DNA of 64,000 nt from Spongiibacter tropicus DSM 19543 (GTDB lineage Bacteria; Pseudomonadota; Gammaproteobacteria; Pseudomonadales; Spongiibacteraceae), in assembly GCF_000420325.1 (NCBI RefSeq), contig NZ_ATUS01000001.1, forward strand, positions 1,306,463 through 1,370,462. Direction: 5' to 3'. Shown in pieces: positions 21,988-45,587 of the stretch. Positions within the stretch are counted from its first letter, which is position 1. Every line of letters starts with the position of its first letter. Below the pieces are notes generated by a model. That model had not been told where the DNA came from. It did not search any database and saw nothing but the letters and a program-made list of their open reading frames with translations. The translations under genes were made by a program, and so were the position numbers.

Positions 21988-23001
21988 TCAAAATGGATTT
22001 ACTGAAATAATGCGACCACCATGCCCCACTGCCGTAACACGCTCCGAATCTGATATCTCTGTGATCGAAATACCCGAGTACCAATTCAGGCTGATATCCA
22101 GCGCGTCGAATGTTTTCCAACTCTTTCCATAATTTTTGCTTACAACAGCGACGCGTTGCCCAATCGCAAAGATATTCCCCGCCTCGTCGCCGCCGATTGC
22201 GAACAAGCTAGATTGAGTCGGAGTCTGTAGCGCCTTCCATGTCATGCCTTTATCTTGAGATATCAGCACTGTTCCCGATTGTCCGGTTACATATCCGGTA
22301 TTACCGTAAAATTTGGAATCGAAGAACGTTGGAGCAATAACGTCACCCTCTTCCGGATGTCGATAGATCACATTCCAGGACTCTCCGCGGTCTACTGAGG
22401 TCAAAATTTGGCCATACTCTCCGCCAATCAGGATTCGACCATCCTCGAGTACTTGAACAACGTAGTTTGTTGGTTCATCACGAATAACGGCGGCATCACC
22501 GGCACCCGAGTCATACAGAGGAGCCCAATCAGGCTGAATGCTTTTCCAGGTCACACCGTGATCGACAGAACGAAGTAAAGTCCCGAAGGCCCCCACGGCA
22601 ACCGCGAGTCCATCACTATTCATGTCCACGCCTAATAAACGCATGCGTGAACTGGAACCAACCTTTTTCCACCCGGACCAATCAACATTAACGATCACCT
22701 CGCCGAGCTGACCTACTGCAACTGCCCCATTTTCGGTGACAGCAACGCTTGTTAATGCGAGTGTTGTAGGGGTGTCAATTTCCGACCAGCTTTTACCGCT
22801 GTCAGACGTTTCCATCAACAATCCAGCTTCGCCAACAGCATATCCATGAGACCCACTGATATCGATGTCATACAGGCGATCGGTTGGTGTATGTGCAACC
22901 AAAAGTTCTCCTGCATGAGCACAGATAGAGAAAAATATGCCGCAAATAGCTATCTTAAATTTAAGAAGATAATTGCGTTTAGAAGAGAACGACATTCTCA
23001 T
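21988..23001 (-). CDS. YCF48/HCF136-like beta-propeller, periplasmic
   Basis: 337 residues. A Sec signal peptide (FKIAICGIFFSICAHA) with a cleavage site after AHA, then repeated propeller blades containing SGKSW, HGVTW, RGESW, KGMTW and YGKSW, each preceded by a GxxGxx(L/I) strand. This matches the photosystem-II-stability-factor-like (YCF48) family, which in non-phototrophs occurs next to RND/DUF1302/DUF1329 genes; its role there is unknown but assembly or docking of the envelope complex is plausible. GGGAG lies before the ATG. Its promoter-side neighbour is DUF1329 copy 2, with a stable hairpin between them. Confidence 0.85.
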   Translation of the reverse strand: MRMSFSSKRNYLLKFKIAICGIFFSICAHAGELLVAHTPTDRLYDIDISGSHGYAVGEAGLLMETSDSGKSWSEIDTPTTLALTSVAVTENGAVAVGQLGEVIVNVDWSGWKKVGSSSRMRLLGVDMNSDGLAVAVGAFGTLLRSVDHGVTWKSIQPDWAPLYDSGAGDAAVIRDEPTNYVVQVLEDGRILIGGEYGQILTSVDRGESWNVIYRHPEEGDVIAPTFFDSKFYGNTGYVTGQSGTVLISQDKGMTWKALQTPTQSSLFAIGGDEAGNIFAIGQRVAVVSKNYGKSWKTFDALDISLNWYSGISITEISDSERVTAVGHGGRIISVNPF

Positions 23002-23061: not shown

Positions 23062-24453
23062 TTATGCACGCCCCAGAGACTGAAGTGCTTGCTGAGTACA
23101 GTAAGTTTCGAACAACCAGTCCTCATCAATCTGGAAGAGGGACTCTGTACCAACACCCTTCTTAGCGTGGTGGGTTCTGGACATACGCTTGTTCTGGTGA
23201 TCGTAGATAAGACAGTATACCCAAGACCATGCCGGCGTCTTTCCGTCAGCACTCAAGACGACTCGATTACCGTCAGCGCCACCACCAACAAACTGACCGA
23301 ATGCCATTTCGAAGTTAGCCCACAGTTTCCCCTGACGGTCGTAACGCATACATCCATTCGGCACGCTGTTACGAGCATCGGCGTATACTCGCTTCTTGCT
23401 TACCGGTGATCGCGGGTATCCGACGGGCTCACATTCGGTAACAATGACATCTGGAGACATTTCATATTCTGTCTCCCAGAACTTGGGATTATTGGCTTGC
23501 TCTTTAGGCTTCCAGTTATCATCGGTATCAGCGAAGTTGCCATTACAGGCGAGAAGCATCGGCTTGCGATCAATGATTTTGTGGTTGCCCCACGTCAGGT
23601 ATGGGTCACCTGCAGCCCAAGGATCAGTCAGGAACCAAGTCGCGCCAGGAATCAACGGCTCGAAGCGCTGGTTTGCCGGGAACTGACGCACACGGCGGAA
23701 CTCGGGCAGGTACCCGTACAAATCAGGTATCTTCGTCTGGTCATAGGACCAGTTACTCAGGAAGGACGTACCTCGAACATCTTGTGAGTTGCTGAAGTAA
23801 ACACACTGGCGCCGGATTTCATCTTCATATCCGCGAAATACCTTGCGGTCGGTACGAGCCTGCATCTGCAACTCGACCCACTGAAAATCATACTCGTACT
23901 CCAGATTTCCGTCCGCGCCATAGTCCCACTGCTTGATCGCATAGGTGTTGGCGTCCGCCCGCCCCCAACTCATAGCCATATTTGCCCAGATTTCCTGGCC
24001 ATTTTTTGGACTTGTGAAGGGTAGGCCACCACTCCAGGCTTTCCCATTCGAATCTACAACGTTTCCTTTACTATCAAATTTACCGCCACGGCCTTCTGCA
24101 ATATTTCTCTGCATGGCTTCGTAGTAGGAGTTATTAAATAGCTGACGCAGCTCAGTGGTAGGAGCACGAACTTTAATCCGACGACCTTCATTTAGAATTT
24201 GATCGTAGATTGAAGGATCCAATAAGTGCTTTGCGTATTCGACGTTATCTTTGGTGATATAGTCACCAACGCTAATCTTACCTTTTGTCTGATCGTCGAT
24301 TGAATAAAGCTCGTCAGGATATGCTTTCAGCAAGCTCAAATCCTTTGCGAATACCTTTTCGAGAGGCATCAGGACTCCCGCCGCCGCTCCATAGGCCATC
24401 CCTTTGAGCAGCTGCCGCCGGCTAAAATTCATATCGTATTTGCGAATGTGCAT
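23062..24453 (-). CDS. DUF1329 family protein with Tat-type signal (copy 2)
   Basis: 463 residues. Start supported by GGAGG six bases upstream. The leader has FSRRQLLKGMAYGAAAG, a twin-arginine motif (S-R-R-x-L-L-K), then a hydrophobic segment ending near KVFAKD. The DUF1329 body parallels copy 1 throughout (YPDELYSIDDQTKGKIS, WSYDQTKIPDLYGYLPEFRR, AWSWVYCLIYD, and the same QQALQSLGRA ending), so the two arose by duplication. Proposed role: periplasmic carrier of a hydrophobic substrate between the DUF1302 barrel and the RND transporter. 73 bp downstream of the RND gene. Confidence 0.87.
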   Translation of the reverse strand: MHIRKYDMNFSRRQLLKGMAYGAAAGVLMPLEKVFAKDLSLLKAYPDELYSIDDQTKGKISVGDYITKDNVEYAKHLLDPSIYDQILNEGRRIKVRAPTTELRQLFNNSYYEAMQRNIAEGRGGKFDSKGNVVDSNGKAWSGGLPFTSPKNGQEIWANMAMSWGRADANTYAIKQWDYGADGNLEYEYDFQWVELQMQARTDRKVFRGYEDEIRRQCVYFSNSQDVRGTSFLSNWSYDQTKIPDLYGYLPEFRRVRQFPANQRFEPLIPGATWFLTDPWAAGDPYLTWGNHKIIDRKPMLLACNGNFADTDDNWKPKEQANNPKFWETEYEMSPDVIVTECEPVGYPRSPVSKKRVYADARNSVPNGCMRYDRQGKLWANFEMAFGQFVGGGADGNRVVLSADGKTPAWSWVYCLIYDHQNKRMSRTHHAKKGVGTESLFQIDEDWLFETYCTQQALQSLGRA

Positions 24454-24526: not shown

Positions 24527-27016
24527 TCAAATTACTCGATCAGTATTAATTTCATTTTTTTTTAGATCGAGATTACTTTCCTTTGTCTCTGCCTCGCCCT
24601 GATCAAACCAAGACATATCAAGGCTTTCGCCTACCATAAGATCGTTGCGTGTAACGAATTTTGGCTTGAGGACATATACAATTAACGGCAGGACAAGCAG
24701 CGCGAGAACCATATTGATCAGCATTACCGAAGACAGCAGCAAACCCATGTCAGCCATGAACTTGAGATCCGACAAGAAATACCAAGGCAAGATACCGACC
24801 AGCATGATTGACGCTGTGAACATGATTGCCTTGCCTGTTGTTGTAAGGGACTCAACTATCGCCTTTTCCCAGCTTTCGCCTTGCGCGCTGTACTCTTCAC
24901 AGATTCGTGACATGAGATAAATGCCGTAATCAATACCCACACCGACACCGAGAACCGCGACCATGACAGAATTTATGTCAAGGCCTATGCCCAGCATGTG
25001 CATAGCCGCAGTCAGATAGAAGTTTGCAAGCACAACAGGAACAAGCAGCACCAATGACGCAACAAATGACTTGTAGGCGAATGAGGCGATAAAGAATATG
25101 GCGACGCATGCCAGCGCCAGCATTATCCATTCATAACGCTTGACAACCTGGTTCTGGGCTTCTTGCAGCGCAATAGTTCCTGATGCCATTCGTACATTGA
25201 TAGTTTCGTGATCATCACCCAGCTCTGAGACCGCTTGTTTTGCCGCGGCCAATGCTTTGTCGATCGTTTCCTGCTTGTTATCTCGATAGAACAGCGACAC
25301 GGCACTGTGCTGGAACTGAAAGTCAGTGACATCTGCAAAGTTCAGGGGGTTTTGACCAAAGGCCACAGCCACGCCCGCGGCGTTCACAGCGCGATCCGTG
25401 GGATCAAGAGAAAGCCATGCAGGGTGTCCTCCAGAATAAAGACGAGATCCCTCTTCCATGAAGTCGGAAAATGAACGCGTTGCTTTCGCCGGATTGTCGC
25501 CGCTCATGACGCTTCGAACGATAGCTTTGGAGACCTCATAGGCTTCTTTACTTCGGGCCGCACGCGCCTGAACATTCCCAGGGTCTTTTGATTCCAGGAT
25601 TATCTCCAGTGAGTTCACACCAGGGAAATGGTCATTAACATCCCGAGTACCAACATTGAACTCGGACTCATCCCACAGGAGATTACTGCCTTCCGTCGGG
25701 TTTCCTATTGCCACCTGCCTAGACACAATAATCACCACGACAGACACCAGACAAACTACTGTAGCTGTTAACTTCGTTCTCTTTTCATTGCCGGTGATTA
25801 ACCGGCCCACACTTGTCAGAACTCTCTTCTGCACACCGTGTATGCCTTTCTCTTTCTCTCCCGCACCGATTATGGAATCGATGTTCTTGGGTGTTGGCAG
25901 ATAGGACAACAAAACAGCAATCAGCATCACACCTGTTGGAATCAGGAAAAATGCCCAAAACCCGCAGAACAGCGCAAATCTCTGCATAGCTGGAATTGGT
26001 GCAACACCGATACACAGGATCGCGAGCGTATCGGTAACAATTCCAAATACACTGGGCGCCATCATCACGGCTAGTGTCGCCTCTGAGGCAAGTTTTTTAT
26101 CTTTCAGCTCGCTGAAGATCTCGTAGTATCGCTCCGTGTACTGAACACAGTGGGAGAACGAGCGGGCAATCAACAGCAGCGGAACTACCATTAGCAGCGG
26201 CTCGATAGGCGACTCAAGCCAGCCTACAAGCCCAAAACCCCATGTCGCAGCAACGGCACTGCACAATATCGGCGTGGCAATACCCGCGAGATTTCGCATA
26301 TAGAATGCCAGCGCAAGGAGAAGGAGGCCGACGGTGACAGCGAAAATTGCATAGGTCTGCTCTTGAAGCAGATAGATCCAGCCCGTCAATACTGGCTGCC
26401 CTACGACCCTGATAGTGTGGCTACCGTCACTCGCCTCTTTTGCCAAGCGCTGGACCTCACTGAATACGTGGCCGTAGTCGAGGAGGTGTTCATGGAAGCC
26501 CGCCCGTATCAGGGTTGCTTTCTCGTCAGACGACACGAGATACGTGCGCGCCATTGGCGACCTTTCCACACGACGCTGAAGATCCTTCAATTCTGCAGCA
26601 CCCTGGGGAATTCTGTCGCCCATCAAGGGCTGCATTTCTACACCCATCGATGTTGCTTCGGCGTAATTTGCTTTTTCAGTAGTGATTGAAATGATTCGGT
26701 CGTGATCGACACCCTCTATCAAATCGATATCACGAGTGAGATCCCAAACTTTCTGCAGCGTCTTTTCGTTATAGATGAGCTCCCCATCTGTCCGCTTGAC
26801 CATAACAGTGATAGTCAGAGGGTTACCGAAGTTTGGATGCTCTTTGAATGTTTGAACAAACGGATCATCTGCTGGCAGCAAATCCGCAAAGATTGTGCGG
26901 ATGTCCACCTTGGGCACACCGAATGCAAAGAATATTGTGATAAGAAGGAAGGCAAAAGCGACGTACGCCCGCTTTGCAATGACTTGCCTTGCTATCTTAA
27001 AGCTTAGATTGTTCAT
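24527..27016 (-). CDS. RND superfamily (MMPL) transporter
   Basis: About 829 residues. The start is taken as MNNLSFKIARQVIAKRA; an upstream in-frame start at 27100 adds 28 unlikely residues. The topology is RND: one N-terminal membrane helix, a large periplasmic loop, helices 2-6, a second loop, helices 7-12, with two halves related by duplication (LLLLALAFYMRNLAGIATPI; later GIGLDINSVMVAVLGVGVGI with the GVGVGIDY motif). The MMPL group moves lipids and hydrophobic compounds by proton motive force. First gene of the module with DUF1329, YCF48 and DUF1302; a 21-bp GTGCA repeat stands upstream. Uptake versus efflux cannot be decided from sequence. Confidence 0.88.
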   Translation of the reverse strand: MNNLSFKIARQVIAKRAYVAFAFLLITIFFAFGVPKVDIRTIFADLLPADDPFVQTFKEHPNFGNPLTITVMVKRTDGELIYNEKTLQKVWDLTRDIDLIEGVDHDRIISITTEKANYAEATSMGVEMQPLMGDRIPQGAAELKDLQRRVERSPMARTYLVSSDEKATLIRAGFHEHLLDYGHVFSEVQRLAKEASDGSHTIRVVGQPVLTGWIYLLQEQTYAIFAVTVGLLLLALAFYMRNLAGIATPILCSAVAATWGFGLVGWLESPIEPLLMVVPLLLIARSFSHCVQYTERYYEIFSELKDKKLASEATLAVMMAPSVFGIVTDTLAILCIGVAPIPAMQRFALFCGFWAFFLIPTGVMLIAVLLSYLPTPKNIDSIIGAGEKEKGIHGVQKRVLTSVGRLITGNEKRTKLTATVVCLVSVVVIIVSRQVAIGNPTEGSNLLWDESEFNVGTRDVNDHFPGVNSLEIILESKDPGNVQARAARSKEAYEVSKAIVRSVMSGDNPAKATRSFSDFMEEGSRLYSGGHPAWLSLDPTDRAVNAAGVAVAFGQNPLNFADVTDFQFQHSAVSLFYRDNKQETIDKALAAAKQAVSELGDDHETINVRMASGTIALQEAQNQVVKRYEWIMLALACVAIFFIASFAYKSFVASLVLLVPVVLANFYLTAAMHMLGIGLDINSVMVAVLGVGVGIDYGIYLMSRICEEYSAQGESWEKAIVESLTTTGKAIMFTASIMLVGILPWYFLSDLKFMADMGLLLSSVMLINMVLALLVLPLIVYVLKPKFVTRNDLMVGESLDMSWFDQGEAETKESNLDLKKNEINTDRVI

Positions 27017-27142
27017 ATCAATACTACTTCGTATGGTTATTTTTTTACCTCGACCCCGGCCTGGCGGACCATAGAAGTCTTGAGGTAACGAAATCTTCAA
27101 CTTTCATTATCAGTATTGCGCCAACGTCCAGCCTATCTCACA

Positions 27143-27168
27143 GTGCAAAGAGAGTGACGTAATGTGCA
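27143..27168. promoter_or_regulatory. Isomerase-regulon operator, RND promoter
   Basis: GTGCA at 27143 and 27164, 21 bp apart. The interior AGAGAGTGACGTAAT closely parallels AGAGACAGTGACATTTT in the site at 31924. 127 bp before the RND start. Confidence 0.75.
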
Positions 27169-27177: not shown

Positions 27178-28200
27178 CTAATCACTGACAGAAACAATGG
27201 ACTTCCCGACATTCTTGCCCTCGAACAGCTCTCGGAGAGCAGATGGCGCATTCTCCAGCCCTTTAGTGATGTGCTCTACAGGCTTGACAGCGCCAAGCCG
27301 AATCCAAGAAGACATTTCCTGAAGAAATTCTCTATGTATATCCGTGTTCAGATAATCAAGAACGAGCGAGCCCTGAATGCGTAAACGCTTCAACAGAACC
27401 TCGTTTAGCAACGTCATATTATTGTCATTTCTCGCCGGACCTGACGTCGATGTATACAAAGCCATCAAACCGCAAATAGCGACACGGCCGTTCTTGTTCA
27501 TTAGCGGAAAAGCGGCATCGAAACTTCGCCCGCCTGTCGAAACCACCATTGCATCAATCCCATCTGGAATCGCAGTTTCAAGCCTCTGCGAAAGATCACG
27601 ACTGGAGTGCTCGATACAATAGTCATATCCCATCGAAGTAGTCGCCAGTTGGCATTTCTCCTCCGTACTCGCAGTACCTACAACTACACCACCCTTCAGT
27701 TTTGCTATCTGGCCAATTATTTGCCCGAGGGCGCCTGTAGCTGCACTGCAGAACACCACATCTCCGGGCTGCACATTGAGTACGTTTCTGTTGGCTAAGT
27801 AGGCCCCAAACCCGGCGGCCCCTAGCGCACCTAGCATATGCGACGGCGAACTCACTCCCGAAGGGATCTTGCTTACGTCCGAGCCGTCACTGATGTGGTA
27901 ATCCTTCCACCCCCACAAACCGTGGACATAATCTTCTTCTGAAAAACCCGCCAGGTTCGAAGCGACGACTCTTCCAACAGCAGCTCCATACATAACCTCA
28001 CCGATCTCAATCGGCTTCGCCTGGTCAGATACTTTTTTCACCCTGGAGAATAGATACGGGTCCATGCCAAGCCATACGGTCTGAATCAAGATCTCGCCCT
28101 TCCCAGGCGCATTGATATCTGCCTCTTCAACGCGAAAGCACTTTTCAGTCGGCACCTGGAAGCGCGGCCGCTCCTTCAGCACTACCCTCTGACTCTTCAT
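27178..28200 (-). CDS. MDR-family NADP-dependent oxidoreductase (alkenal/enone reductase type)
   Basis: About 340 residues; start at MKSQRVVLKERPRF with GGGAG upstream. It has an N-terminal GroES-like domain (VWLGMDPYLFSRV, matching the leukotriene B4 dehydrogenase/curcumin reductase branch) and a Rossmann domain with VFCSAATGALGQIIGQIAK. No catalytic zinc ligands are present, as expected in this branch, which reduces alpha,beta-unsaturated aldehydes and ketones with NADPH. An alternative is detoxification of reactive aldehydes from epoxide isomerisation. It has its own copy of the regulon operator 66 bp upstream and ends 10 bp from the RND operator. Confidence 0.87.
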   Translation of the reverse strand: MKSQRVVLKERPRFQVPTEKCFRVEEADINAPGKGEILIQTVWLGMDPYLFSRVKKVSDQAKPIEIGEVMYGAAVGRVVASNLAGFSEEDYVHGLWGWKDYHISDGSDVSKIPSGVSSPSHMLGALGAAGFGAYLANRNVLNVQPGDVVFCSAATGALGQIIGQIAKLKGGVVVGTASTEEKCQLATTSMGYDYCIEHSSRDLSQRLETAIPDGIDAMVVSTGGRSFDAAFPLMNKNGRVAICGLMALYTSTSGPARNDNNMTLLNEVLLKRLRIQGSLVLDYLNTDIHREFLQEMSSWIRLGAVKPVEHITKGLENAPSALRELFEGKNVGKSIVSVSD

Positions 28201-28265
28201 CCTGACTATCTCCCTGTTATTTTTTTCAGAATGCATGCATACACGCGGATTGTTCTCCACGATTC

Positions 28266-28291
28266 GTGCAAATAGGGTGTCAATCAGTGCG
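28266..28291. promoter_or_regulatory. Isomerase-regulon operator, MDR reductase promoter
   Basis: GTGCA at 28266 and GTGCG at 28287, 21 bp apart, 66 bp before the MDR reductase start. The second half-site has one mismatch. Confidence 0.62.
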
Positions 28292-28462
28292 GGTAGAAAA
28301 GTGCGAACACGGCGCCTATGGTGTTGTCAGGCTGCTCCTTGGCCGGCACAAATGGGATGATAGAAAAGGATTGAATAGGGACTGGGGGCAATGCCATTAC
28401 GGAACGCAGGAGGCCAAAAGGAAGGCGTGACACGCCTCCCGTTAATCGTAGTACTTTGACGC

Positions 28463-29449
28463 TTATTTTGAAGAATCTTCTCGAAATTCCCTCGGCGTTT
28501 TTCCGTAGCGTGTCTTAAACAAGCGCGTGAACGTAGCGTACTCACCAAATCCCGAGTCAAAGGCGATGTCAGTTATCTTTCTATTTTTTTCGCGACTATC
28601 CAGCAATGCTCTCACCGCGGTTTCCAACCGCAGTTCACGAATTAATTTGACTGGTGTCGTGTCGATTTCCTCGAACAACATATAAAGCGACCTGCGAGAC
28701 ATGCACATGGCTGACGCCAGATCGTCAGGCCCAAAACTGCTGTCGCTTAAATTCCGGATTATATGATCTCGAGCTTTGTTGAGGCGGGGGTCGTTGTAAG
28801 CCTGTAGACCGGTCTGCTCAGCCGACCGGTACAATAGTTTAGTCACCATCAACTGGATCGCGTCCAATACCGCGCCAATGTCCTCTTCGCCTTCATCTCG
28901 ATCGGCAGCAGTAAGCGCCATCAATGTTCCCAATACCGACCGCATCGATGCGCCCTTGTATAAGGTCGTCGCACAGATCGACTCTGAAATATGCTCCCAG
29001 CCAGCACAATAATCATGAGGCAACATTAGTACAGCAAATTTAGACTGGTCAGACATCTGAATTCTATATGGTCTCGCACTATCGCATACCGTCGCCTGAC
29101 CAGGCGAGAGACTGCAGCTACGGTCATCTTGCTCTACCATCAGACCACCACTAAGCTGCCACATGATCTTTATCGATCCGCTGTCGGTCATTTCGGCGAG
29201 GTGACGCGTCCGTTTCACCTCACCAGCCGAGGTGCGAATCATACTCAGACCAGAGCAACCCACCTGCTGAGAGTAGATTTCTGCATCAAACTGACCAGAT
29301 GCTCTATTTCTAAATTCAAGCCAGGGAAAGTTATCTCGAACGAAGTCTTTCCATTCTTTGAACGACTCGACCTGACGGGTAGATGCCGGCAACCAGCCCA
29401 ACGTTGAAAGCGCCGTTTCACCGGCCATTTGCCCCTGTATGACACTCAT
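28463..29449 (-). CDS. AraC-family activator, FeaR-like
   Basis: 328 residues: an N-terminal AraC_binding_2 sensor domain (about 30-200, with IKIMWQLSGGLMVEQDDRS and LSPGQATVCDSARPY) and a C-terminal pair of helix-turn-helices (DLASAMCMSRRSLYMLFEE; ITDIAFDSGFGEYATFTRLF followed by YGKTPREFRE). This layout is shared with FeaR, which controls phenylethylamine/phenylacetaldehyde metabolism. It lies beside the isomerase gene, and six transcription units around it carry GTGCA repeats at about two helical turns, the usual footprint of an AraC dimer or monomer pair. It is the best candidate for the regulator of those units; its own promoter lacks the repeat. Confidence 0.85.
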   Translation of the reverse strand: MSVIQGQMAGETALSTLGWLPASTRQVESFKEWKDFVRDNFPWLEFRNRASGQFDAEIYSQQVGCSGLSMIRTSAGEVKRTRHLAEMTDSGSIKIMWQLSGGLMVEQDDRSCSLSPGQATVCDSARPYRIQMSDQSKFAVLMLPHDYCAGWEHISESICATTLYKGASMRSVLGTLMALTAADRDEGEEDIGAVLDAIQLMVTKLLYRSAEQTGLQAYNDPRLNKARDHIIRNLSDSSFGPDDLASAMCMSRRSLYMLFEEIDTTPVKLIRELRLETAVRALLDSREKNRKITDIAFDSGFGEYATFTRLFKTRYGKTPREFREDSSK

Positions 29450-29508
29450 AACACACCATTTTAATAGTTATTTTGGATATTCTTCGGTCACTTTTACTTA
29501 GAATAGAC

Positions 29509-29537
29509 ATATCGGGGGAGCAAAGCTCCCGCGATAT
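29509..29537. other. Hairpin between isomerase and AraC genes
   Basis: ATATCGGGGGAGC, loop AAA, GCTCCCGCGATAT with a single G-G mismatch. There is no T-run on either side. It lies just after the isomerase stop and before the AraC start; likely a transcript-end stabiliser. Confidence 0.55.
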
Positions 29538-29549
29538 CGTAACAATATT

Positions 29550-30032
29550 TCAGCTCTCTCTTGCCTGCTTCAAGGCCGCAAGACCGATAACGGCCAGCGC
29601 CCAAAGCGCCAGCACACCAAATAAGTAGGCTGGCGCTAGCCCCAAGAAGCTGAACAAACCACCTTCGCCAAGAGAACTGTCGCCAAAGCTTAGCGCTCGG
29701 TTATCACTCAGGTTTCCAAAGAAATAGAACGCGACATTTCCCCAACCATCCAGAAGCACGATCCAACCCAGCAACTTCGCTTTCTTGGCGGTAAAATCCA
29801 GATGAGGCATCACCAACGCGACGGCTATAACCATCATGCCATTTAGTACTGGCCCGGAATGAGCCCGCTTCCATCCTTCGGGCGTCCCCGGCATATCGAA
29901 ATGAATGATATAACCAGGAATGATTTCGAACCCTCCCAGTAAGCTCATCCAATAAAACACGCCAAACAACAATGCCGAGAAGATCATGAGAACTCCATGT
30001 CCCAGCATTTTTTTCTGAAATGAATCTGGCAT
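29550..30032 (-). CDS. styC: Styrene oxide isomerase homologue (StyC-like membrane haem protein)
   Basis: 160 residues, four hydrophobic helices, strongly similar to StyC of Pseudomonas as I recall it: MLGHGVLMIF, GGFEIIPGYII, EGWKRAHSGPVLNGMMVIAV, LDGWGNVAFYFFGNL, LAPAYLFGVLALWALAVIG. His58, Asn64 and Tyr103, reported for StyC as haem ligand and epoxide-site residues, fall at exactly those numbers here. StyC converts styrene oxide to phenylacetaldehyde by a haem-assisted Meinwald rearrangement in the inner membrane. Start at 30032 set by GGGGAGG. The next gene upstream is an aldehyde dehydrogenase, then the EthD and paaK genes, giving the route to phenylacetyl-CoA. No styrene monooxygenase genes accompany it. 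Confidence 0.88.
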   Translation of the reverse strand: MPDSFQKKMLGHGVLMIFSALLFGVFYWMSLLGGFEIIPGYIIHFDMPGTPEGWKRAHSGPVLNGMMVIAVALVMPHLDFTAKKAKLLGWIVLLDGWGNVAFYFFGNLSDNRALSFGDSSLGEGGLFSFLGLAPAYLFGVLALWALAVIGLAALKQARES

Positions 30033-30147
30033 TACTTGCCTCCCCACTATTTTTTAAATTTATGCTTGTGCTGCGAGGGCATTTCGCAAAATCATGTAAC
30101 CAGCTGTACTCCCTTCAAACATGCCTCACACTTCTGGAAGCACACTT

Positions 30148-30172
30148 GCGCATAGCACTGACATTTTGTGCA
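30148..30172. promoter_or_regulatory. Isomerase-regulon operator, styC promoter (variant)
   Basis: GTGCA at 30168 is preceded by TGACATTTT exactly as in the site at 31924; the partner half-site GCGCA at 30148 has one mismatch and 20-bp spacing. The site is 116 bp before the isomerase start. It lies in the 328-bp gap 30033-30360, which otherwise holds only the AT-rich promoter region (about 30170-30230) and the terminator of the aldehyde dehydrogenase. Confidence 0.6.
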
Positions 30173-30304
30173 ATAATAAGACTATATAATACATATCAAT
30201 TTTTCCTTGTAAATACTTTTTTTTGTATCACTTACCTTCGGCACCTCCCTATCCTTTTCTCGATTAAGCAGACCGTTACCGATCTACCCATACTCAACGT
30301 ACTG

Positions 30305-30351
30305 ATAAAAAAGCCGCAAGAAATGCTACTGGGGGAAGCACAACTCGCGGC
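30305..30351 (-). terminator. Probable terminator of the phenylacetaldehyde dehydrogenase gene
   Basis: GCCGCAAG pairs with CTCGCGGC around an inner TGCT/AGCA stem; on the minus strand the stem is followed by six Ts. It begins about 10 bp after the dehydrogenase stop at 30361. Confidence 0.6.
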
Positions 30352-30360
30352 AAGAAGCCC

Positions 30361-31842
30361 TTAATCGGTAACGACGGTAATAACCTTTTCTTCAGTGTAA
30401 GCCATTACTCCAGATAAGCCGCACTCACGACCACTGCCACTCTGCTTAACGCCGCCCCACGGCAGCCTCGCATCAATGGGAGCCCAACAGTTAACCCCTA
30501 CTGCTCCAGCCTTAATTTTCTTAGCCATTCGATGAGCACGCTTTACATCAGAGGTCCAAACGGTAGCGCCTAACCCGTATACCGTCCCATTGGCAATTTC
30601 TACAGCATCCTGTTCGTCATCAAAGGGAATGACGGTAGCCACTGGGCCGAAAATTTCTTGTTGCGCGATAGCCATGTCATTGGTGGCCGCAGCAAAAACT
30701 GTTGGACGAACAAACCAACCCTTCTCGTACGGACACTCACCACCCGCCAGCAGTGACGCCCCTGCCGCGACGCCCTCGCGGATATAGTAGTTAACTCTAT
30801 CCAGCTGTGCTTTTTTGCACACAGGCCCCATTTGGACGCCTTCCTCCTGGGGGTTACCAACGACAATATTGCTGGCCACGTCAGCAAGCTTCTGCGCAAA
30901 CTCATCGGCGATATCTCGCTGCACTAGTATTCTAGACCCTGCTGCACATATTTGCCCCTGATTAAAAAAGATCCCCATCGCGCATCCAGCCAGCGCCTCA
31001 TCCTGATCTGCATCAGAAAATACAACTTGCGGGCTTTTTCCGCCAAGCTCTAAAGATACTCGCTTGAAGTCTTTTGCGGCTTCAGTCTGAATATGTTGAC
31101 CCACAGCCGGACTACCTGTAAACGTGATCTTGTCTACACTAGGGTGACGCACGAGGGCATTGCCAATGACTGAGCCAGACCCCGTGACGACATTGACCAC
31201 GCCATCGGGAATTCCGGCTTCCTTAGCAAGCTTAGCCAAATGTAACGCCGACATCGGGGTTTCTTCTGAAGGCTTGATCACCACAGTACACCCGGCAGCC
31301 AATAAAGGAGCGACTTTCCAGCATGTGATCATGAAAGGTGTATTCCAGGGCGTAATCGCGGCCACCACGCCCACTGGCTCATTTACCGTATAAGACAATG
31401 TAGCCCGACCAAGATAACCCGGAGTGGGAATTGTCCGCCCCTCGATCTTGTCAGCCCAACCTGCCGAGGTCCGGATGGTTTGGATAGCATTGGGCAGATC
31501 CAGGATTCGCGGCTCCATGGGAACCCGACCAATACAAACGGCATCCATATCTGCGATCAAGTCAGCATCGCGCTCCACGAGGTCTGCCAGCTTGTTTATC
31601 AGGCATCCGCGCTGATAGCCGCTAAGACTGGACCAAACCCCATTATCGAACTCAGATCTCGCCGCAGACACCGCGGCATCAACCTCGGCAACACCTCCAA
31701 ATGAGTAGCTTGCCAACACGGTTTCATCGACGGGGTTTATCAACTCCCCCCGTGCACCATCTGAGGACTCGACCTCTATCCCATTGATAAAATGGAACAT
31801 TTCTGTAGGCAACAGGCCAGCTTCTGACTGTAATTTCGTCAC
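30361..31842 (-). CDS. Aldehyde dehydrogenase, probable phenylacetaldehyde dehydrogenase
   Basis: 493 residues from a GTG start with GGAG upstream. ALDH motifs: TPWNTPFMITCWKVAP, FTGSPAVGQHI, Glu base in LELGGKSPQVVF, catalytic Cys in FFNQGQICAAGSRILV, and EIFGPVATVIPF. It resembles the FeaB/StyD branch that oxidises phenylacetaldehyde to phenylacetate with NAD. The assignment rests on context: the StyC-like isomerase is the next gene downstream and phenylacetate-CoA ligase lies upstream. A regulon operator sits 82 bp before the start, and a terminator-like hairpin follows. Confidence 0.85.
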   Translation of the reverse strand: MTKLQSEAGLLPTEMFHFINGIEVESSDGARGELINPVDETVLASYSFGGVAEVDAAVSAARSEFDNGVWSSLSGYQRGCLINKLADLVERDADLIADMDAVCIGRVPMEPRILDLPNAIQTIRTSAGWADKIEGRTIPTPGYLGRATLSYTVNEPVGVVAAITPWNTPFMITCWKVAPLLAAGCTVVIKPSEETPMSALHLAKLAKEAGIPDGVVNVVTGSGSVIGNALVRHPSVDKITFTGSPAVGQHIQTEAAKDFKRVSLELGGKSPQVVFSDADQDEALAGCAMGIFFNQGQICAAGSRILVQRDIADEFAQKLADVASNIVVGNPQEEGVQMGPVCKKAQLDRVNYYIREGVAAGASLLAGGECPYEKGWFVRPTVFAAATNDMAIAQQEIFGPVATVIPFDDEQDAVEIANGTVYGLGATVWTSDVKRAHRMAKKIKAGAVGVNCWAPIDARLPWGGVKQSGSGRECGLSGVMAYTEEKVITVVTD

Positions 31843-31923
31843 TATGTAATCTCCGCTTTTTATTCGCGATATCTCGTCTTTTCAGCATTTCACCCGAATT
31901 TGAGTGACACAACGTACCGACAT

Positions 31924-31949
31924 GTGCAGAGACAGTGACATTTTGTGCA
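31924..31949. promoter_or_regulatory. Isomerase-regulon operator, aldehyde dehydrogenase promoter
   Basis: GTGCA at 31924 and 31945, 21 bp apart, with interior AGTGACATTTT; 82 bp before the GTG start of the dehydrogenase. Confidence 0.75.
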
Positions 31950-31964
31950 ATTGCCTGCCCGACC

Positions 31965-32279
31965 TTACAGGCTAACAACCTCGCTAAACTGCATGCTTGG
32001 CATAATATTCGTGTAATTCTTTATATCCCGAATAATTGCCTTCTGTGCCACAGAAAACCTTTCGTTAAAATCATCGACACTGGTAACGTATAATTGGACC
32101 GCAGCGACAACTTCAGCCTGCTGTTCCGACTTCGCTCCGAACATGCCTTTATCAATCTCGCAACGCACACAGACATCCCCAAGAACCTCTTTCACCATCG
32201 GAATATGCGTTGACAAGTAGTAGTCATGATCAAAGCAACCATCGTCAGATCTGAAGTAGCTGATACTTACCTTTATCAT
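31965..32279 (-). CDS. EthD family small protein
   Basis: About 104 residues, start MIKVSISYFRS at 32279, one base after the thiolase stop, so translationally coupled. The EthD-type ferredoxin-like fold is recognisable from FDHDYYLSTHIPMVKEVLG, where the Tyr-Tyr and His of the family motif are kept, and a C-terminal FSEVV strand. EthD proteins form dimeric alpha/beta barrels; some are needed for ether or aromatic oxidation and others act as small isomerases or decarboxylases, so no firm reaction can be given. Last gene of the paaK-thiolase-EthD unit. Confidence 0.8.
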   Translation of the reverse strand: MIKVSISYFRSDDGCFDHDYYLSTHIPMVKEVLGDVCVRCEIDKGMFGAKSEQQAEVVAAVQLYVTSVDDFNERFSVAQKAIIRDIKNYTNIMPSMQFSEVVSL

Positions 32280-32280
32280 T

Positions 32281-33465
32281 TTATCTCTCTGTCTTATTAA
32301 GGAATTGTGTGTTTTCCAGGATAATCGCAATACCATGTCCACTGTTTGAAGACGCAGCGCACAAAGCGTATCGAAGATTTTTTGATTGCATACTGTTTAT
32401 CGCAGTGACGACCAGCCTAGCGGATGAGGCTCCCGTTGCCTCACCAATGGCTAGGTCGCCCCCGCTACCATTTAGCTTCGCCAGTCCCAATGGAACGCCC
32501 AGGTCCTTCATTACGCTTATCGCCTCCACCGCACAAACCTCTCCAACCTCGATCACATCAAGGTCCTTGGGCCTGAGACCGGTTTCGGCAAATACTTTTC
32601 TGATAGCCGGGATACAATAAGGCGAATCAGCCGCCAGTGGGCTTTCTACTACGGCGTGGGCCAGAACCCTCGCTCGCGCTCGCAAACCCAATTCTTCCAC
32701 ACCGGACATAGACGCCACCAGCAGGCAACACGAGCCATCAACCGTCGGCGCGAACCCCTCATGCAATGACGGATGGATATCAACCAAACTGTCGACAAAC
32801 TTGCGGCCATGCTCACGCAGTCGCAAGCCATCAAGCTCATCTTCACTAAAATAGCCTCCACCCAGCTTCTGATCATTGCTAATCAGCATACACTCACGAT
32901 CAAAGAATCCCCGTTGACGCGCAGCCATCGTCCGTCCGTAAGCGGCTACGATATACGAGTTAATATTTTCATTTGATATGGCGTAGTTTTTCGCCAACAT
33001 TGATCTGCGCGCAGCCTTCTCAGACAGCCTCGTGAACTTGAATTCCCCTTCTGAGCCGCTGTAATCGGCATTAGTGGCAGGCCCGCTCGCCTTAGAACTG
33101 GAGCTCACACCGATAACCACTGAAAGATTTGACGCGCCAGTACCTATGTCGCCGGCTGCCCGTTCGATGGCAGCCATACCCGTACAGTGCAACCAACCTA
33201 ACGGCGTTACGCTTACATTGCGCTCGATTGAGGTCTTGTCAACGCAAACGTCGACAAACTTCTTTGCGCCCTCTAACGTGCATAAATTTTTATTATTGGA
33301 GCCCACATACAGACGATCCACTCGACGCCAGTCAAGCTTTGGATTCCTTTTGACCATATCCGCCAACGGCAATGATGCAAGCTGAGCAGTCGAGTATCGC
33401 TCAAGGTAGCTATTTCGGATGGCAAAAGGTGTACGCACGGCTCCACATATGAATGCAGAGCTCAT
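32281..33465 (-). CDS. Thiolase-superfamily protein with altered catalytic motifs
   Basis: 394 residues with the overall thiolase layout (ICGAVRTPFA at the start, as in PcaF/PaaJ) but with the conserved catalytic boxes changed. The nucleophile region is GWLHCTGMAAIERA, keeping a Cys. The NEAFA box reads EVGEVCAVEAI; the GHPxGxSG box, which carries a catalytic His in normal thiolases, reads GEATGASSAR; and the C-terminal CxGxGxG reads CAASSNSGHG. It is thus unlikely to be a normal thiolase. It lies 10 bp after paaK and is coupled to the EthD gene, so all three are induced together. Confidence 0.85.
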   Translation of the reverse strand: MSSAFICGAVRTPFAIRNSYLERYSTAQLASLPLADMVKRNPKLDWRRVDRLYVGSNNKNLCTLEGAKKFVDVCVDKTSIERNVSVTPLGWLHCTGMAAIERAAGDIGTGASNLSVVIGVSSSSKASGPATNADYSGSEGEFKFTRLSEKAARRSMLAKNYAISNENINSYIVAAYGRTMAARQRGFFDRECMLISNDQKLGGGYFSEDELDGLRLREHGRKFVDSLVDIHPSLHEGFAPTVDGSCCLLVASMSGVEELGLRARARVLAHAVVESPLAADSPYCIPAIRKVFAETGLRPKDLDVIEVGEVCAVEAISVMKDLGVPLGLAKLNGSGGDLAIGEATGASSARLVVTAINSMQSKNLRYALCAASSNSGHGIAIILENTQFLNKTER

Positions 33466-33475
33466 ATCATTATTA

Positions 33476-34786
33476 CTACCGATAGTCCTTGACGCGTTTT
33501 GCCTTCCCTTCTGAGCGCGCTAAGCCTTCACCCTCGACCAGCTTCACCTTGATAGATATCCCCACATAGGTCTTAACCAGATGCTTGAGCCGACTGACGA
33601 TCTCTTCTCTAGCTTGCGCTCCCAGCTCCTGATACTCCGGATTAAGCTCAACCGAGACCGTTACAACATCTAGATTTCCGTCTTTAGAAACTTCGATGAA
33701 GTAAATCGGCGCCAACTCCGAGACCTTTAGCAGCAACTCTTCTATCTGAGTGGGAAACACATTGACGCCACGTATGATAAGCATGTCATCCGAGCGACCA
33801 GTAATCTTGCCGATGCGTCTCATGCCCCGAGAAGTAGGCGGCAGCAACTTGGTCAAATCGCGAGTTCGATAGCGTATAACGGGAAAGGCCTCCTTCGTCA
33901 GGGATGTGAACACCAACTCCCCTTCTTCCCCATCTGGCAAGACCTCTCCCGTCACAGGGTCAATGATTTCAGGAAGAAAATGATCTTCCCAGATCACCGG
34001 CCCGTCCTTACTTTCGACGCATTCGCTTGCAACGCCCGGCCCCATGACTTCAGAAAGACCATAGATATCTACAGCGTCGATACCCGCTCGCTCTTCAATT
34101 TCTTCCCGCATCGCATTTGTCCATGGCTCTGCGCCAAAGATGCCGATCTCCAAGCTCGTTGACCTAGGGTCGATACCCTGCCGCTCAAACTCTTCTATCA
34201 GGTTCAGCATATAAGAAGGGGTAACCATGATGATGCGGGGCTTAAAGTCCTGAATCAGCTGCACCTGCTTTTCAGTCTGCCCACCAGACATTGGAACCAC
34301 TGTGCACCCGAGACGCTCTGCGCCATAGTGAGCGCCCATCCCGCCAGTAAACAGACCGTAACCATAGGCATTATGGAGAATATCTCCCGGACGCCCACCC
34401 GCCGCTCTGATACTTCTGGCAACCAAATTCGCCCAGTTATCAATATCCGCATGGGTATAACCGACAACTGTGGGCTTACCCGTCGTCCCGCTAGACGCAT
34501 GGATTCTGACCACCTTTTCTCGCGGAACAGCGAACAGGCCAAATGGATAATTGTCTCGTAGATCCTGCTTCCCCAAAAATGGGAATTTATTCAGATCTGA
34601 CAAAGAGTTAAGATCATTAGGAGTGACGCCGGCTTCGTCAAACTTCTTCTTGTAGAACGGTACGTTCTTATAGGCATTTTCTAATGTATTTTTAAGTCGT
34701 TCTAGCTGAAGAGCCGAAATTTCTTCTCTACTAGCCATCTCGATCGGTTCCAACTCGGGCTTGGAACTATTGGATAGGGTAGGCAT
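33476..34786 (-). CDS. paaK: Phenylacetate-CoA ligase
   Basis: 436 residues, the normal length of PaaK. Adenylate-forming motifs: HASSGTTGKPTVVGYT (ATP loop), NAYGYGLFTGGMGAHYG, YGLSEVMGPGVASEC, YRTRDLT and GRSDDMLIIRGVNVFP, with the C-terminal lysine in LARSEGKAKRVKDYR. It converts phenylacetate, ATP and CoA to phenylacetyl-CoA, the substrate of the PaaABCE epoxidase encoded at 44-48 kb. GGAGGA precedes the ATG. It is controlled with the isomerase regulon (operator 61 bp upstream), not with the core paa operon, linking the upper and lower pathways. Confidence 0.93.
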   Translation of the reverse strand: MPTLSNSSKPELEPIEMASREEISALQLERLKNTLENAYKNVPFYKKKFDEAGVTPNDLNSLSDLNKFPFLGKQDLRDNYPFGLFAVPREKVVRIHASSGTTGKPTVVGYTHADIDNWANLVARSIRAAGGRPGDILHNAYGYGLFTGGMGAHYGAERLGCTVVPMSGGQTEKQVQLIQDFKPRIIMVTPSYMLNLIEEFERQGIDPRSTSLEIGIFGAEPWTNAMREEIEERAGIDAVDIYGLSEVMGPGVASECVESKDGPVIWEDHFLPEIIDPVTGEVLPDGEEGELVFTSLTKEAFPVIRYRTRDLTKLLPPTSRGMRRIGKITGRSDDMLIIRGVNVFPTQIEELLLKVSELAPIYFIEVSKDGNLDVVTVSVELNPEYQELGAQAREEIVSRLKHLVKTYVGISIKVKLVEGEGLARSEGKAKRVKDYR

Positions 34787-34846: not shown

Positions 34847-34872
34847 GTGCAGCGCTGGAGGCATTGTGTGCA
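34847..34872. promoter_or_regulatory. Isomerase-regulon operator, paaK promoter
   Basis: GTGCA at 34847 and 34868, 21 bp apart, 61 bp before the paaK start. Same orientation to the gene as the other five. Confidence 0.72.
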
Positions 34873-34987: not shown

Positions 34988-35059
34988 TGTAGTGGCATAG
35001 TGAATTTGGCCACCTAATTAGAGGTGATAGCATCACCTCATTCGATTACAGGTGACCCA

Positions 35060-36237
<1,178 letters not shown>

Positions 36238-38161: not shown

Positions 38162-38347
38162 ATGGGACTAAGTGGAATTAGTATTTGGCAGCTTCTTATC
38201 ATACTGACTATTGTAGCCATGCTATTTGGTACAAAAAGACTGAGAAACATTGGCTCTGATCTTGGTGGCGCAATAGCGGGCTTCAAAAACAGCCTAAGCA
38301 ACAAAAACGATGAAACACAAACTCTATCACCGCATGACAAAGAATAA
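38162..38347 (+). CDS. tatA: TatA/TatE-like twin-arginine translocase component
   Basis: 61 residues: a single N-terminal membrane helix ([17 protein letters not shown]), then the conserved [20 protein letters not shown] amphipathic helix and a charged tail. GGGAG precedes the ATG; an in-frame ATG at 38117 is not supported. Normally tatA is with tatB and tatC, which are not here. As an extra, cluster-borne TatA it may adjust Tat export; the two DUF1329 proteins at 18.4 and 23.1 kb carry Tat signals. Downstream is alkB. Confidence 0.88.
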
Positions 38348-38552
38348 TCCACGCGCACCAAACCCTTGCCCAAATACCGAAATATATCCAACCGCGCATA
38401 GATAAAATTCCATGGCGAAACAACAAATATTCGCAATCCTGACATTACCTTCGCAAAACTGATAGCCCCCTTTCCTTCTCATTAATATCATTTACCAGTA
38501 ACGGCTTAACGGCCGACTCGAAACCCAAGTTACCAATAAAAAGGTGGTATAA

Positions 38553-39722
38553 ATGAGTGAAGTAATGAATCGCCAAAAAACACGAAATTTGGCTACCCGA
38601 GACAAAAAACGATACTTTTGGTGGCTTCCGCTTTTTATTGCGATCTCCCCCATTGTTGGAATCGAATTTTATAAAACCACCGGAAACGCCATCTATGCCT
38701 GGTTTACACCGATTCTATGGTATTTATTTGTCCCTCTAGGTGACTTTTTGTTTGGTAGAGACGACAAAAACTATAGTGCACAGCGTGCCGACGAGCTAGA
38801 GAATGACAACTACTACAAATGGTTGGTTTTCCTGTCGGTCCCCCTGTTTTTTGTAACTTGGATGTATGGTGCTTGGTGGGTGTCAACCCAAGCTGTCTCC
38901 GTATCCGACTACCTTGGTATGACGATCGGTGTTGCCTTGACCAATGGACTGGCACTGGTAGTTGGACATGAGTTGGGACACAAGAACAATCGCCTGGAAA
39001 AGAACCTAGCCAAATGGGTTCTGGCAGTACCCGCTTACGGGCATTTCTCTGCTGAACACAATCGCGGCCACCACAAAGATGTCGCTACCCCTGATGATCC
39101 CGCATCTGCAAGGATGGGAGAGTCATTGTACCGCTTTGTTCTTCGAGAAATTCCTGGTGCTTTTGTCAGAGCCTTTCATGATGAAAAGGTACGACTCGAG
39201 CGAAAGGGTAAATCCGTAATCAGTGCCGAAAACCAGATCCTACAGTCATTCGCGATTACCTTTGTTCTCTATGGAGCTGCACTGACACTATGGGGCACTG
39301 TTGTTATTCCTTTTATGGTCATATCAACTTTGTGGGGCTGGCAGTTTCTATCCACGTCCAACTATATCGAACACTACGGTCTACTGCGCCAGAAACAAGA
39401 AGACGGTCGCTTTGAGCGCACACGCCCTGAGCACTCATGGAACGCTGATTTTCGAGTTTCCAACCTCGTAACCTATCACCTCCAGCGCCACTCAGACCAC
39501 CACTCCCGACCAACCCGCCGTTACCAGGTATTGCGCAGCGACGACGCCCCCGAACTTCCCACTGGTTACGCTGGCTGTTTCACCATGGCTTACTTCACAC
39601 CGATCTGGCGCAAAGTCATGGATCCAAAAGTACTCGAGGTCTATGGCGGAGACATTCTCAAAGCTAACCTCGACCCCAAACACCGCGATGCACTCATTGC
39701 GAAATATGGGAGAGCATCCTAA
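38553..39722 (+). CDS. alkB: AlkB-type alkane 1-monooxygenase (membrane di-iron hydroxylase)
   Basis: 389 residues with six hydrophobic segments and the His boxes of AlkB: HELGHK, EHNRGHHKDVATPDDPAS and LQRHSDHHSRPTRRY, plus the diagnostic NYIEHYGLLRQ. It hydroxylates the terminal carbon of alkanes or alkyl side chains, and can epoxidise alkenes, with electrons from rubredoxin. AAGGTGGTATAA precedes the ATG. The stop overlaps the rubredoxin start (TAATG), so the two are translationally coupled. A phenylalkane or alkylarene substrate would connect to the phenylacetate genes in this window, but the true substrate cannot be read from sequence. Confidence 0.95.
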   Translation: MSEVMNRQKTRNLATRDKKRYFWWLPLFIAISPIVGIEFYKTTGNAIYAWFTPILWYLFVPLGDFLFGRDDKNYSAQRADELENDNYYKWLVFLSVPLFFVTWMYGAWWVSTQAVSVSDYLGMTIGVALTNGLALVVGHELGHKNNRLEKNLAKWVLAVPAYGHFSAEHNRGHHKDVATPDDPASARMGESLYRFVLREIPGAFVRAFHDEKVRLERKGKSVISAENQILQSFAITFVLYGAALTLWGTVVIPFMVISTLWGWQFLSTSNYIEHYGLLRQKQEDGRFERTRPEHSWNADFRVSNLVTYHLQRHSDHHSRPTRRYQVLRSDDAPELPTGYAGCFTMAYFTPIWRKVMDPKVLEVYGGDILKANLDPKHRDALIAKYGRAS

Positions 39723-39892
39723 TGGCTAGTTATCGCTGCCCCGGTTGTGGCTATACATATGACGAAGATAAAGGCGATGAATTCGAAGGCTTTCCTGCGG
39801 GTACTCAATGGCAAGTGGTTCCCGACGACTGGTCCTGCCCCGACTGCTCTGTTAGAGACAAAATAGATTTCGAAAAAGTCGAGGACCAATGA
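39722..39892 (+). CDS. Rubredoxin 1 (AlkG1-like)
   Basis: 56 residues. Two iron-binding pairs: CPGCGYTYDEDKGD and DDWSCPDCSVRDKIDFE. The extra basic residue after the second pair (SVRDK) is the mark reported for AlkG1-type rubredoxins, which transfer electrons poorly to AlkB. Starts in the TAATG overlap with alkB and is three bases before rubredoxin 2. Confidence 0.9.
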   Translation: MASYRCPGCGYTYDEDKGDEFEGFPAGTQWQVVPDDWSCPDCSVRDKIDFEKVEDQ

Positions 39893-39895
39893 AGA

Positions 39896-40057
39896 ATGGC
39901 CAAATACGAATGCATCGTGTGTGGGTTTATTTATGACGAAGCACTTGGTCTTCCTGAGGACGGAATCCCCCCAGGCACAAAATGGGAGGACATACCGGAC
40001 GACTGGACATGCTTTGAATGCAGCTGCCCCAAAACCGACTTTGAACTACTTGAATGA
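39896..40057 (+). CDS. Rubredoxin 2 (electron donor to AlkB)
   Basis: 53 residues. [20 protein letters not shown] and [16 protein letters not shown] carry the four iron ligands, without the insertion seen in rubredoxin 1, so this is closer to the AlkG2 type that feeds AlkB. The fragment ECSCPK, with an extra Cys after the second pair, is unusual. It is in one transcription unit with alkB and ends 12 bases before the PQQ dehydrogenase gene. Rubredoxin reductase is not in the window. Confidence 0.9.
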
Positions 40058-40069
40058 AAGATCATTACA

Positions 40070-42211: not shown

Positions 42212-42270
42212 TCCAATAGTGAACGTTGTCCCTCGTCAGTAAATAATAACAGCGTTTCCCGAGGTTCCAG

Positions 42271-42897
42271 ATGAGTTTTTACGATAATAAAATCCTTCCT
42301 CATATTCTAGATACCCTCTGTAGCCACGGGGCAGTGATGAGCCAACGTGAACGTGTTGTACCACGTGCACGCGGAGTGGTTCTCGAAGTCGGTATGGGTA
42401 GTGGCATCAATTTGCCGCTTTACAACCCTGATATCGTTGATTTCGTCTGGGGACTTGAACCAGCAGAGGGAATGCGCAAAAAAGCCCTGCCCAACTTGGC
42501 CAAGTCACCAGTCGAAGTAAAATGGCTGGATCTGCCAGGGGAGAAAATTCCACTCGACGACGAGAGCGTCGATACAGTATTGCTGACCTATACCCTTTGC
42601 ACTATATCCGACTGGCAAAGCGCCCTTGAACAAATGCATCGTGTGCTTAAACACGAAGGGAAACTGCTGTTTTGTGAACATGGCCATTCGTGTCATGAAC
42701 CGGTCTCAAAATGGCAACACAGGATTACACCAATGTGGAAGAAACTAGCCGGCGGCTGTCATCTGAACCGATCGATCAGCGAAATGATTTCGTCAAGTGG
42801 ATTCACCATTACCGAGCTCGATAACTGCTATATGGAGAGCTTTCCGAAAATCACCGGTTATATGTATATCGGTGAAGCAGAAAAACAGATCGATTGA
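42271..42897 (+). CDS. Class I SAM-dependent methyltransferase
   Basis: 208 residues with motif I VLEVGMGSGINLPLYN and the post-I/II pattern (VWGLEPAEGMRKKA; DTVLLTYTLCTISDW; HRVLKHEGKLLFCEHG). It resembles the UbiE/METTL7-like group. It lies 59 bp after the alcohol dehydrogenase and may be in the same unit. A methyltransferase of this kind is frequent beside alkB genes; its acceptor is unknown. Not UbiE itself, as the surrounding genes give no ubiquinone context. Confidence 0.82.
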   Translation: MSFYDNKILPHILDTLCSHGAVMSQRERVVPRARGVVLEVGMGSGINLPLYNPDIVDFVWGLEPAEGMRKKALPNLAKSPVEVKWLDLPGEKIPLDDESVDTVLLTYTLCTISDWQSALEQMHRVLKHEGKLLFCEHGHSCHEPVSKWQHRITPMWKKLAGGCHLNRSISEMISSSGFTITELDNCYMESFPKITGYMYIGEAEKQID

Positions 42898-42979
42898 TAC
42901 ATACGCCCGCCGTTTCTAGACAATAACTTGCGGCGGGGTGTAGTATCAGGATTCTGGTAGCGACGTATGCAAGTCGACT

Positions 42980-43969: not shown

Positions 43970-43991
43970 GCCTACCCTTTATAGAAGACTT

Positions 43992-44429: not shown

Positions 44430-44468
44430 GAATAGTTCTCCCACCTAGCCGCTATTTTGGTGATCGAC

Positions 44469-45560: not shown

Positions 45561-45587
45561 TATCCCGATTCTCTCTTATCTTAATCG

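Follow-up and report, generated by a model that had tools for sequence, protein, structure and literature searches.

We analysed 64,000 nucleotides of the Spongiibacter tropicus DSM 19543 genome (contig NZ_ATUS01000001.1, positions 1,306,463 to 1,370,462), hereafter the window, whose numbering is used throughout. A styrene-degradation (sty) gene cluster was confirmed at 27178-34786 on the minus strand; it encodes an isomerase of the StyC type, and our search of the genome found no StyA, one half of the two-component styrene monooxygenase (SMO; StyA and StyB). The reading that we prefer, tentatively and with slightly less than even confidence, is that the cluster serves a pathway for the side chain of styrene or a close aryl-alkene, that the SMO has been lost, and that a flavoprotein encoded at 16833-18233 most likely makes the epoxide. 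This would single out one candidate gene for a new epoxidising flavoenzyme and provide a natural case in which the styrene pathway lost its first enzyme and kept the others.

In the proposed pathway the flavoprotein would form an aryl epoxide from an aryl-alkene, the most conjectural of the steps. The haem enzyme StyC would rearrange the epoxide to phenylacetaldehyde, which the aldehyde dehydrogenase would oxidise, and PaaK would activate the acid product for breakdown by the adjacent paa pathway. An AraC-type regulator, which would bind a shared operator, probably controls the cluster, and the MMPL, DUF1302, DUF1329 and YCF48 proteins probably transport a hydrophobic substrate. Our observations are of gene content, the absence of StyA, conservation, operator sharing and the intact StyC active site.

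An isomerase cluster without StyA

The minus-strand gene run that contains the cluster extends from 34786 down to 16155. Its genes, in transcription order, are as follows.

33476-34786, minus: phenylacetate-CoA ligase PaaK (TIGR02155)
32281-33465, minus: thiolase-like protein, catalytic triad lost (PF00108/PF02803)
31965-32342, minus: EthD-like small protein (homologues match PF07110)
30361-31842, minus: phenylacetaldehyde dehydrogenase, StyD-like (PF00171; best families are two StyD models, below cut-off)
29550-30047, minus: styC, styrene-oxide isomerase, probably starting at the internal ATG at 30032 (NF045734, 8pnu, residues)
28463-29449, minus: AraC/XylS-family regulator (PF12833, PF14525)
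27178-28260, minus: MDR-type (ADH_N_2) oxidoreductase (PF16884, PF00107)
24527-27100, minus: MMPL/RND-type transporter (PF03176)
23062-24453, minus: DUF1329 protein (PF07044)
21988-23001, minus: YCF48-like protein (PF14870)
19900-21948, minus: DUF1302 protein (PF06980)
18445-19815, minus: second DUF1329 protein (PF07044)
16833-18233, minus: flavoprotein, candidate replacement epoxidase (two Rossmann motifs, operator upstream)
16155-16748, minus: PaaY-like protein (TIGR02287 best, 282.4 bits, below the cut-off of 319.6)

Judged from its sequence, the protein encoded at 29550-30047 is a StyC-type styrene-oxide isomerase (SOI) with an intact active site. It passes the NF045734 equivalog model (239.5 bits, cut-off 150), is 66% identical to StyC of Pseudomonas sp. 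VLB120 and matches the solved SOI structure 8pnu (E 4e-67). When the internal ATG at 30032 is taken as the start, the residue numbering agrees with that of VLB120 StyC, and the original prediction that His58, Asn64 and Tyr103 are kept at the Pseudomonas StyC numbers is borne out. According to PMC11374702, H58 is the SOI haem ligand and N64, D95, N99 and Y103 are further key residues, whose changes to Ala in Pseudomonas StyC impaired (N64, D95) or abolished (N99, Y103) activity; all five are retained here. The sixth position checked, T20, which contacts H58 in VLB120 StyC, is Ala, as it is in Marinibacterium and Phaeobacter StyC. For the ratio of nonsynonymous to synonymous substitution rates (dN/dS), 12 of 15 genome pairs were excluded because dS was saturated; the three usable pairs gave 0.028 (G009 versus G010), 0.029 (G009 versus G013) and, for the nearly identical pair G010/G013, 0.51.

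PaaK exceeds the TIGR02155 equivalog cut-off (722.2 versus 646.3 bits) and, with PaaA, PaaC and PaaZ also over their cut-offs, the phenylacetate lower pathway is present. The aldehyde dehydrogenase scores 659.8 bits against a cut-off of 800 for one StyD model and 503 against 850 for the other. Both PaaK and the aldehyde dehydrogenase accompany StyC as had been claimed, but they do not follow it: in transcription order both precede it. The EthD-like protein has no Pfam match of its own, and its same-place homologues at locus L015 (42%) and in Spongiibacter thalassae (45-46%) are both over the PF07110 EthD cut-off. The Cys/His/Cys set of the thiolase-like protein is incomplete in all six styAB-less clusters described below, the gene nevertheless being kept, and is intact in the Solimonas thiolase.

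StyA was sought with a profile of four StyA proteins, three known StyA carriers serving as positive controls. In the joint search all three controls matched at E<=1.4e-207, and the whole 3.95-Mb genome gave no match at E<=0.001; the best values were 0.0255 here, 0.0176 in Zhongshania sp. BJYM1 and 0.115 in Spongiibacter thalassae KMU-166. For the other three carriers of the cluster the absence of StyA rests on the fetched cluster stretches. At E<=1e-3 the window gave no match to any individual query (three proteins each for StyA and StyB, a single one each for StyS and StyR), and at the same threshold the four kinds of protein were also absent from 13 stretches of the five remaining carriers. 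The Pfam family Smoa_sbd was dropped as a StyA test, since it was blank here but also positive in 0 of 14 controls. The predicted absence of a StyA/StyB pair is thus upheld, genome-wide for StyA (with positive controls) and within the window for StyB.

The cluster is not peculiar to this genome. Among 21 genomes of the family StyC was over cut-off in eight, and six of these (232-251 bits), all of one genus and including Zhongshania sp. BJYM1 and S. thalassae, carry the same styAB-less cluster; the other two, scoring 154 and 175 bits, are more remote and have StyC among other genes. The styAB-less cluster is a conserved state and no assembly accident, and its presence in six genomes lends support to the SMO-less StyC pathway suggested earlier. 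Against named genomes the window StyC found 16 loci, and in 12 of these the stretch also contains StyA. Stretches lacking it are those of L015 and L024, which have the styAB-less cluster, of L022, and of L026, where the match is partial. In a four-gene tree (PaaK, aldehyde dehydrogenase, StyC and AraC; 14 genomes) the six carriers form one clade (support 98/95) beside Solimonas, Hydrocarboniphaga and Panacagrimonas (91/93), whose clusters hold styAB before styC. The simplest reading would be that the six carriers' ancestor lost styAB once.

Literature searches, confined to open-licence papers, turned up no SMO-less StyC cluster in the titles and abstract openings listed. In the accessible parts of the papers concerned, StyC is described together with SMO (PMC5874493, PMC12502698), and Zhongshania and Spongiibacter are mentioned for the paa pathway only (PMC13186573). 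PMC13188929 mentions no isomerase.

A shared operator and the candidate epoxidase

A 21-bp direct repeat, TGCAC-N16-TGCAC, lies on the coding strand before four genes of the run, with a mismatched copy before a fifth.

34847-34872, minus: operator before paaK (exact repeat)
31924-31949, minus: operator before the aldehyde dehydrogenase gene (exact repeat)
28266-28291, minus: operator before the MDR oxidoreductase gene (one mismatch, likewise in the other five genomes)
27143-27168, minus: operator before the MMPL gene (exact repeat)
18371-18396, minus: operator before the flavoprotein gene (exact repeat)

The four exact sites and the mismatched one are present in all six genomes. Four exact repeats were found in the window and 0.0 were expected from ten first-order Markov simulations; genome-wide there are 14 exact copies, against 2 for a reversed control pattern, and the ten outside the cluster all lie within open reading frames (ORFs) of at least 221 amino acids. 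The original prediction had named as counter-evidence a second site in the genome with styAB behind the GTGCA operator. None was found: the genome search gave no StyA, and no exact operator outside the cluster falls outside an ORF. Before the flavoprotein gene the half-sites are kept while only 5-10 of the 16 spacer positions are identical (12-15 of 16 within the closely related trio G009, G010 and G013). The operator is upstream in all six genomes, although in three of them the position of the flavoprotein gene has changed to another end of the cluster.

Direct repeats two helical turns apart, the arrangement of an AraC/XylS regulon, thus precede four genes in all six genomes, and the AraC regulator is presumed to bind them. 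Homologues of this regulator (45-50%) sit after styC in Solimonas, Hydrocarboniphaga and Panacagrimonas. The same repeat is found before both paaK and the aldehyde dehydrogenase gene in Solimonas, before the aldehyde dehydrogenase gene and, at 20-bp spacing, before paaK in Hydrocarboniphaga, and before paaK in Panacagrimonas. Because it occurs in these clusters as well, it seems to belong to an older sty regulon.

The flavoprotein is the sole candidate oxygenase among the genes that follow an exact repeat. It appears to have joined the sty regulon and is the best-supported candidate for a replacement epoxidase. Its orthologues (at least 82%) occur in exactly the six styC-cluster genomes among 390 of the order, 29 of which have any match at E<=1e-10. 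Two Rossmann motifs are conserved in the protein, and together with a GGHWN...YPF...LHQ block they recall class B flavin monooxygenases; we take that class to be marked by two Rossmann motifs plus a class fingerprint, which by eye is not clearly present here.

Several results weigh against the flavoprotein and the pathway built on it. No family in Pfam or NCBIfam matches the flavoprotein over cut-off, a PDB profile search returned generic flavin adenine dinucleotide matches only (best E 0.0017), and its AlphaFold model, made from a two-row alignment, has a predicted local distance difference test (pLDDT) score of only 39. An hhalign comparison with StyA spans only 35 Rossmann columns; with no StyA profile match in the genome either, we regard the protein as no StyA (group E) relative. 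Its six-genome distribution, which AlkB shares, may just reflect co-inheritance with the cluster and would then not be independent evidence. Of 20 loci with remote homologues (34-47%), 12 have an adjoining DUF2855 gene, in one case as a contig-end fragment, and no isomerase match lies near the homologues, so the wider role of the family is probably not in styrene metabolism. Once a single mismatch is permitted, the count by itself makes the repeat weak evidence (7 in the window versus 3.6 expected), and styC itself is preceded by an imperfect copy only. A tree of StyC alone, which has a weak backbone, unites the six carriers in 0% of 200 bootstrap trees.

The DUF2855-paired homologues (L125-L130, L132, L133 and L135-L138) make up an uncharacterised two-gene unit.

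Alternative sources of the epoxide

Three origins of the epoxide had been proposed: AlkB, the flavoprotein, or an unlinked enzyme. The operator favours the flavoprotein over AlkB, and unlinked cytochrome P450s and soluble diiron monooxygenases stay in contention. We consider it unlikely, if the best of the competing explanations, that such an unlinked P450 or soluble diiron enzyme makes the epoxide. The genome has 17 P450 matches (10-25 per carrier among the six, some genes being counted twice) and a PF02332 monooxygenase, and in a metagenome-assembled genome of the Mycobacteriaceae (L022, 10001-18105) a Rieske protein and two PF02332 alpha subunits lie near styC, with no styAB match within 10 kb. 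However, PF02332 is present in only three of the six carriers, and the exact repeats outside the cluster all fall inside ORFs, mismatched repeats not having been searched genome-wide.

The remaining proposal concerns genes on the other side of the cluster, which we list with the further features of the window.

38553-39722, plus: AlkB (PDB 8sbb, 8f6t alkane 1-monooxygenase)
40070-42211, plus: pyrroloquinoline quinone (PQQ) dehydrogenase with cytochrome domain (PF01011, PF13442)
44469-55692, no strand given: paa phenylacetyl-CoA pathway genes (PaaA, PaaC, PaaZ over cut-off)
15609-16118, plus: divergent SOI-like paralogue (NF045734 40.5 bits, below cut-off)

AlkB and the PQQ dehydrogenase could supply the pathway either by vinyl epoxidation or by taking an ethylbenzene-type side chain through 2-phenylethanol to phenylacetaldehyde, which we regard as improbable. 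Membrane diiron oxygenases of the AlkB type epoxidise alkenes. This protein is a true AlkB relative, its gene is placed between the sty and paa genes in the window, and of 21 genomes of the family the same six have an orthologue of at least 78% (next best at most 47%; 16 of 21 with any match at E<=1e-30). Since both AlkB and the flavoprotein are restricted to the same six genomes, distribution cannot separate them; we favour the flavoprotein because the operator precedes its gene and not alkB in all six, no TGCAC-N16-TGCAC with up to one mismatch lying upstream of alkB in any of them. With the same distribution as the flavoprotein yet no operator, AlkB was rejected as first choice. Also against it, a separate AraC gene lies downstream of the alkB module, and in S. 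thalassae alkB is ~62 kb from paaK, in a recently shared segment. The 18.3 kb at 38178-56497 (alkB, PQQ dehydrogenase and paa genes) have a counterpart of 99.5-99.7% identity in S. thalassae (G025), where it is a second paa region, whereas the sty cluster DNA is ~65-78% alike, and so the stretch was probably transferred recently.

Slightly less probable still is a pathway with no intracellular epoxidation, in which StyC acts on imported epoxides or on a non-styrene epoxide: it would fit the loss of styAB, the retention of StyC, aldehyde dehydrogenase and PaaK and the gain of putative hydrophobic-substrate transport genes, but free aryl epoxides would be expected to be scarce and unstable in water, and each of the six genomes has an oxidoreductase gene preceded by the repeat.

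Within the paa region PaaX domains were found, together with reductase, thiolase and enoyl-CoA hydratase domains at 44469, 48185 and 49467; the remaining gene names there were assigned by reading. An insertion-sequence-type element (HTH_Tnp_1 and rve domains) occupies 35024-36237, between paaK and a SnoaL-like gene. The SOI-like paralogue, which lies within ~4 kb of the flavoprotein gene in five of the six genomes, keeps the haem-ligand His and not N64, D95, N99 or Y103. Its structural model (pLDDT 70) resembles 8pnu with a template modelling (TM) score of 0.69 and E 1.3e-4, with the caveat that the underlying alignment included StyC rows. Because N64, N99 and Y103 are missing, it probably does another job than StyC. 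A third, weak StyC-like frame is present in the genome (G000:C1:1663557-1663973; protein E 6.5e-5, family model 0.075).

StyC-like proteins elsewhere and known sty systems

At E<=1e-6 the StyC model finds as many as six matches per genome in the genus. In a hand-picked alignment of 44 rows, which contains canonical StyC and only part of the matches, the haem-ligand His is kept in 42, N64 in 36, N99 in 29 and Y103 in 30. Various genes were seen next to StyC-like genes. A P450 gene directly precedes the StyC-like gene in two genomes of another genus of the family (L088 8131-9844, overlapping, and L089 8316-10017). A PF10118 gene does so in three (L212, L213 and L214, which come from a single family) of the four sub-cut-off loci found outside the family. 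Within the genus, ten loci (L072-L080, L083) have a PF10118 gene no more than ~5 kb from the StyC-like gene, and at six more (L081, L082, L084-L087), where few or no neighbours were tested, no PF10118 gene was found. Pfam names PF10118 a predicted metal-dependent hydrolase; the order E, EXXH, E, EXXH, which is known from diiron proteins, is kept in all 17 proteins checked, each Pfam-confirmed, and may represent a diiron site. The protein at L083 1415-2314, ~5.7 kb from the StyC-like gene, was dropped as a PF10118 candidate, being of the fatty-acid-desaturase family. An AlkB-like desaturase-family protein stands beside the StyC-like gene of L070.

It is conceivable, although we would not call it probable, that StyC-type haem isomerases form a wide epoxide-isomerase family served by interchangeable oxygenases: StyAB, a new family of flavoprotein epoxidases represented by this cluster, P450s, soluble diiron enzymes and PF10118 proteins as diiron epoxidases. 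If so, StyAB would be only one of several routes into the same Meinwald step, and the neighbours of StyC-like genes could guide the search for unknown epoxidases, PF10118 among them, and for microbial aryl-alkene breakdown.

With the styABCD systems of Pseudomonas VLB120, Rhodococcus and Marinobacter the window shares StyC, phenylacetaldehyde dehydrogenase, PaaK and the paa genes. It differs in that no StyA was found in the genome, in having no StyS or StyR match in the window and an AraC gene instead, and it adds five genes of hydrophobic-substrate type, the MDR oxidoreductase and the flavoprotein. StyC copies outside a styAB operon are known from Rhodococcus. Rhodococcus opacus 1CP has a second one in a genome that retains StyAB, according to the accessible part of PMC13101518, and in Rhodococcus oxybenzonivorans a StyC copy lies beside an AraC-type gene with StyAB still in the genome. 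Second StyC copies near styAB were seen at L005, L016 (partial), L019 and L021.

The clusters of Solimonas, Hydrocarboniphaga and Panacagrimonas differ from that of the window in holding styAB before styC and, in Solimonas, the only one checked, in an intact thiolase; their fetched stretches (that of Panacagrimonas being short) gave no MMPL, DUF1302, DUF1329 or YCF48 match, and the Panacagrimonas cluster gave no aldehyde dehydrogenase match. In Solimonas soli and Hydrocarboniphaga effusa, on the other hand, the order PaaK, thiolase, aldehyde dehydrogenase, styA, styB, styC, araC is otherwise that of the window, the AraC regulators are homologous, and TGCAC repeats likewise stand before paaK and/or the aldehyde dehydrogenase gene.

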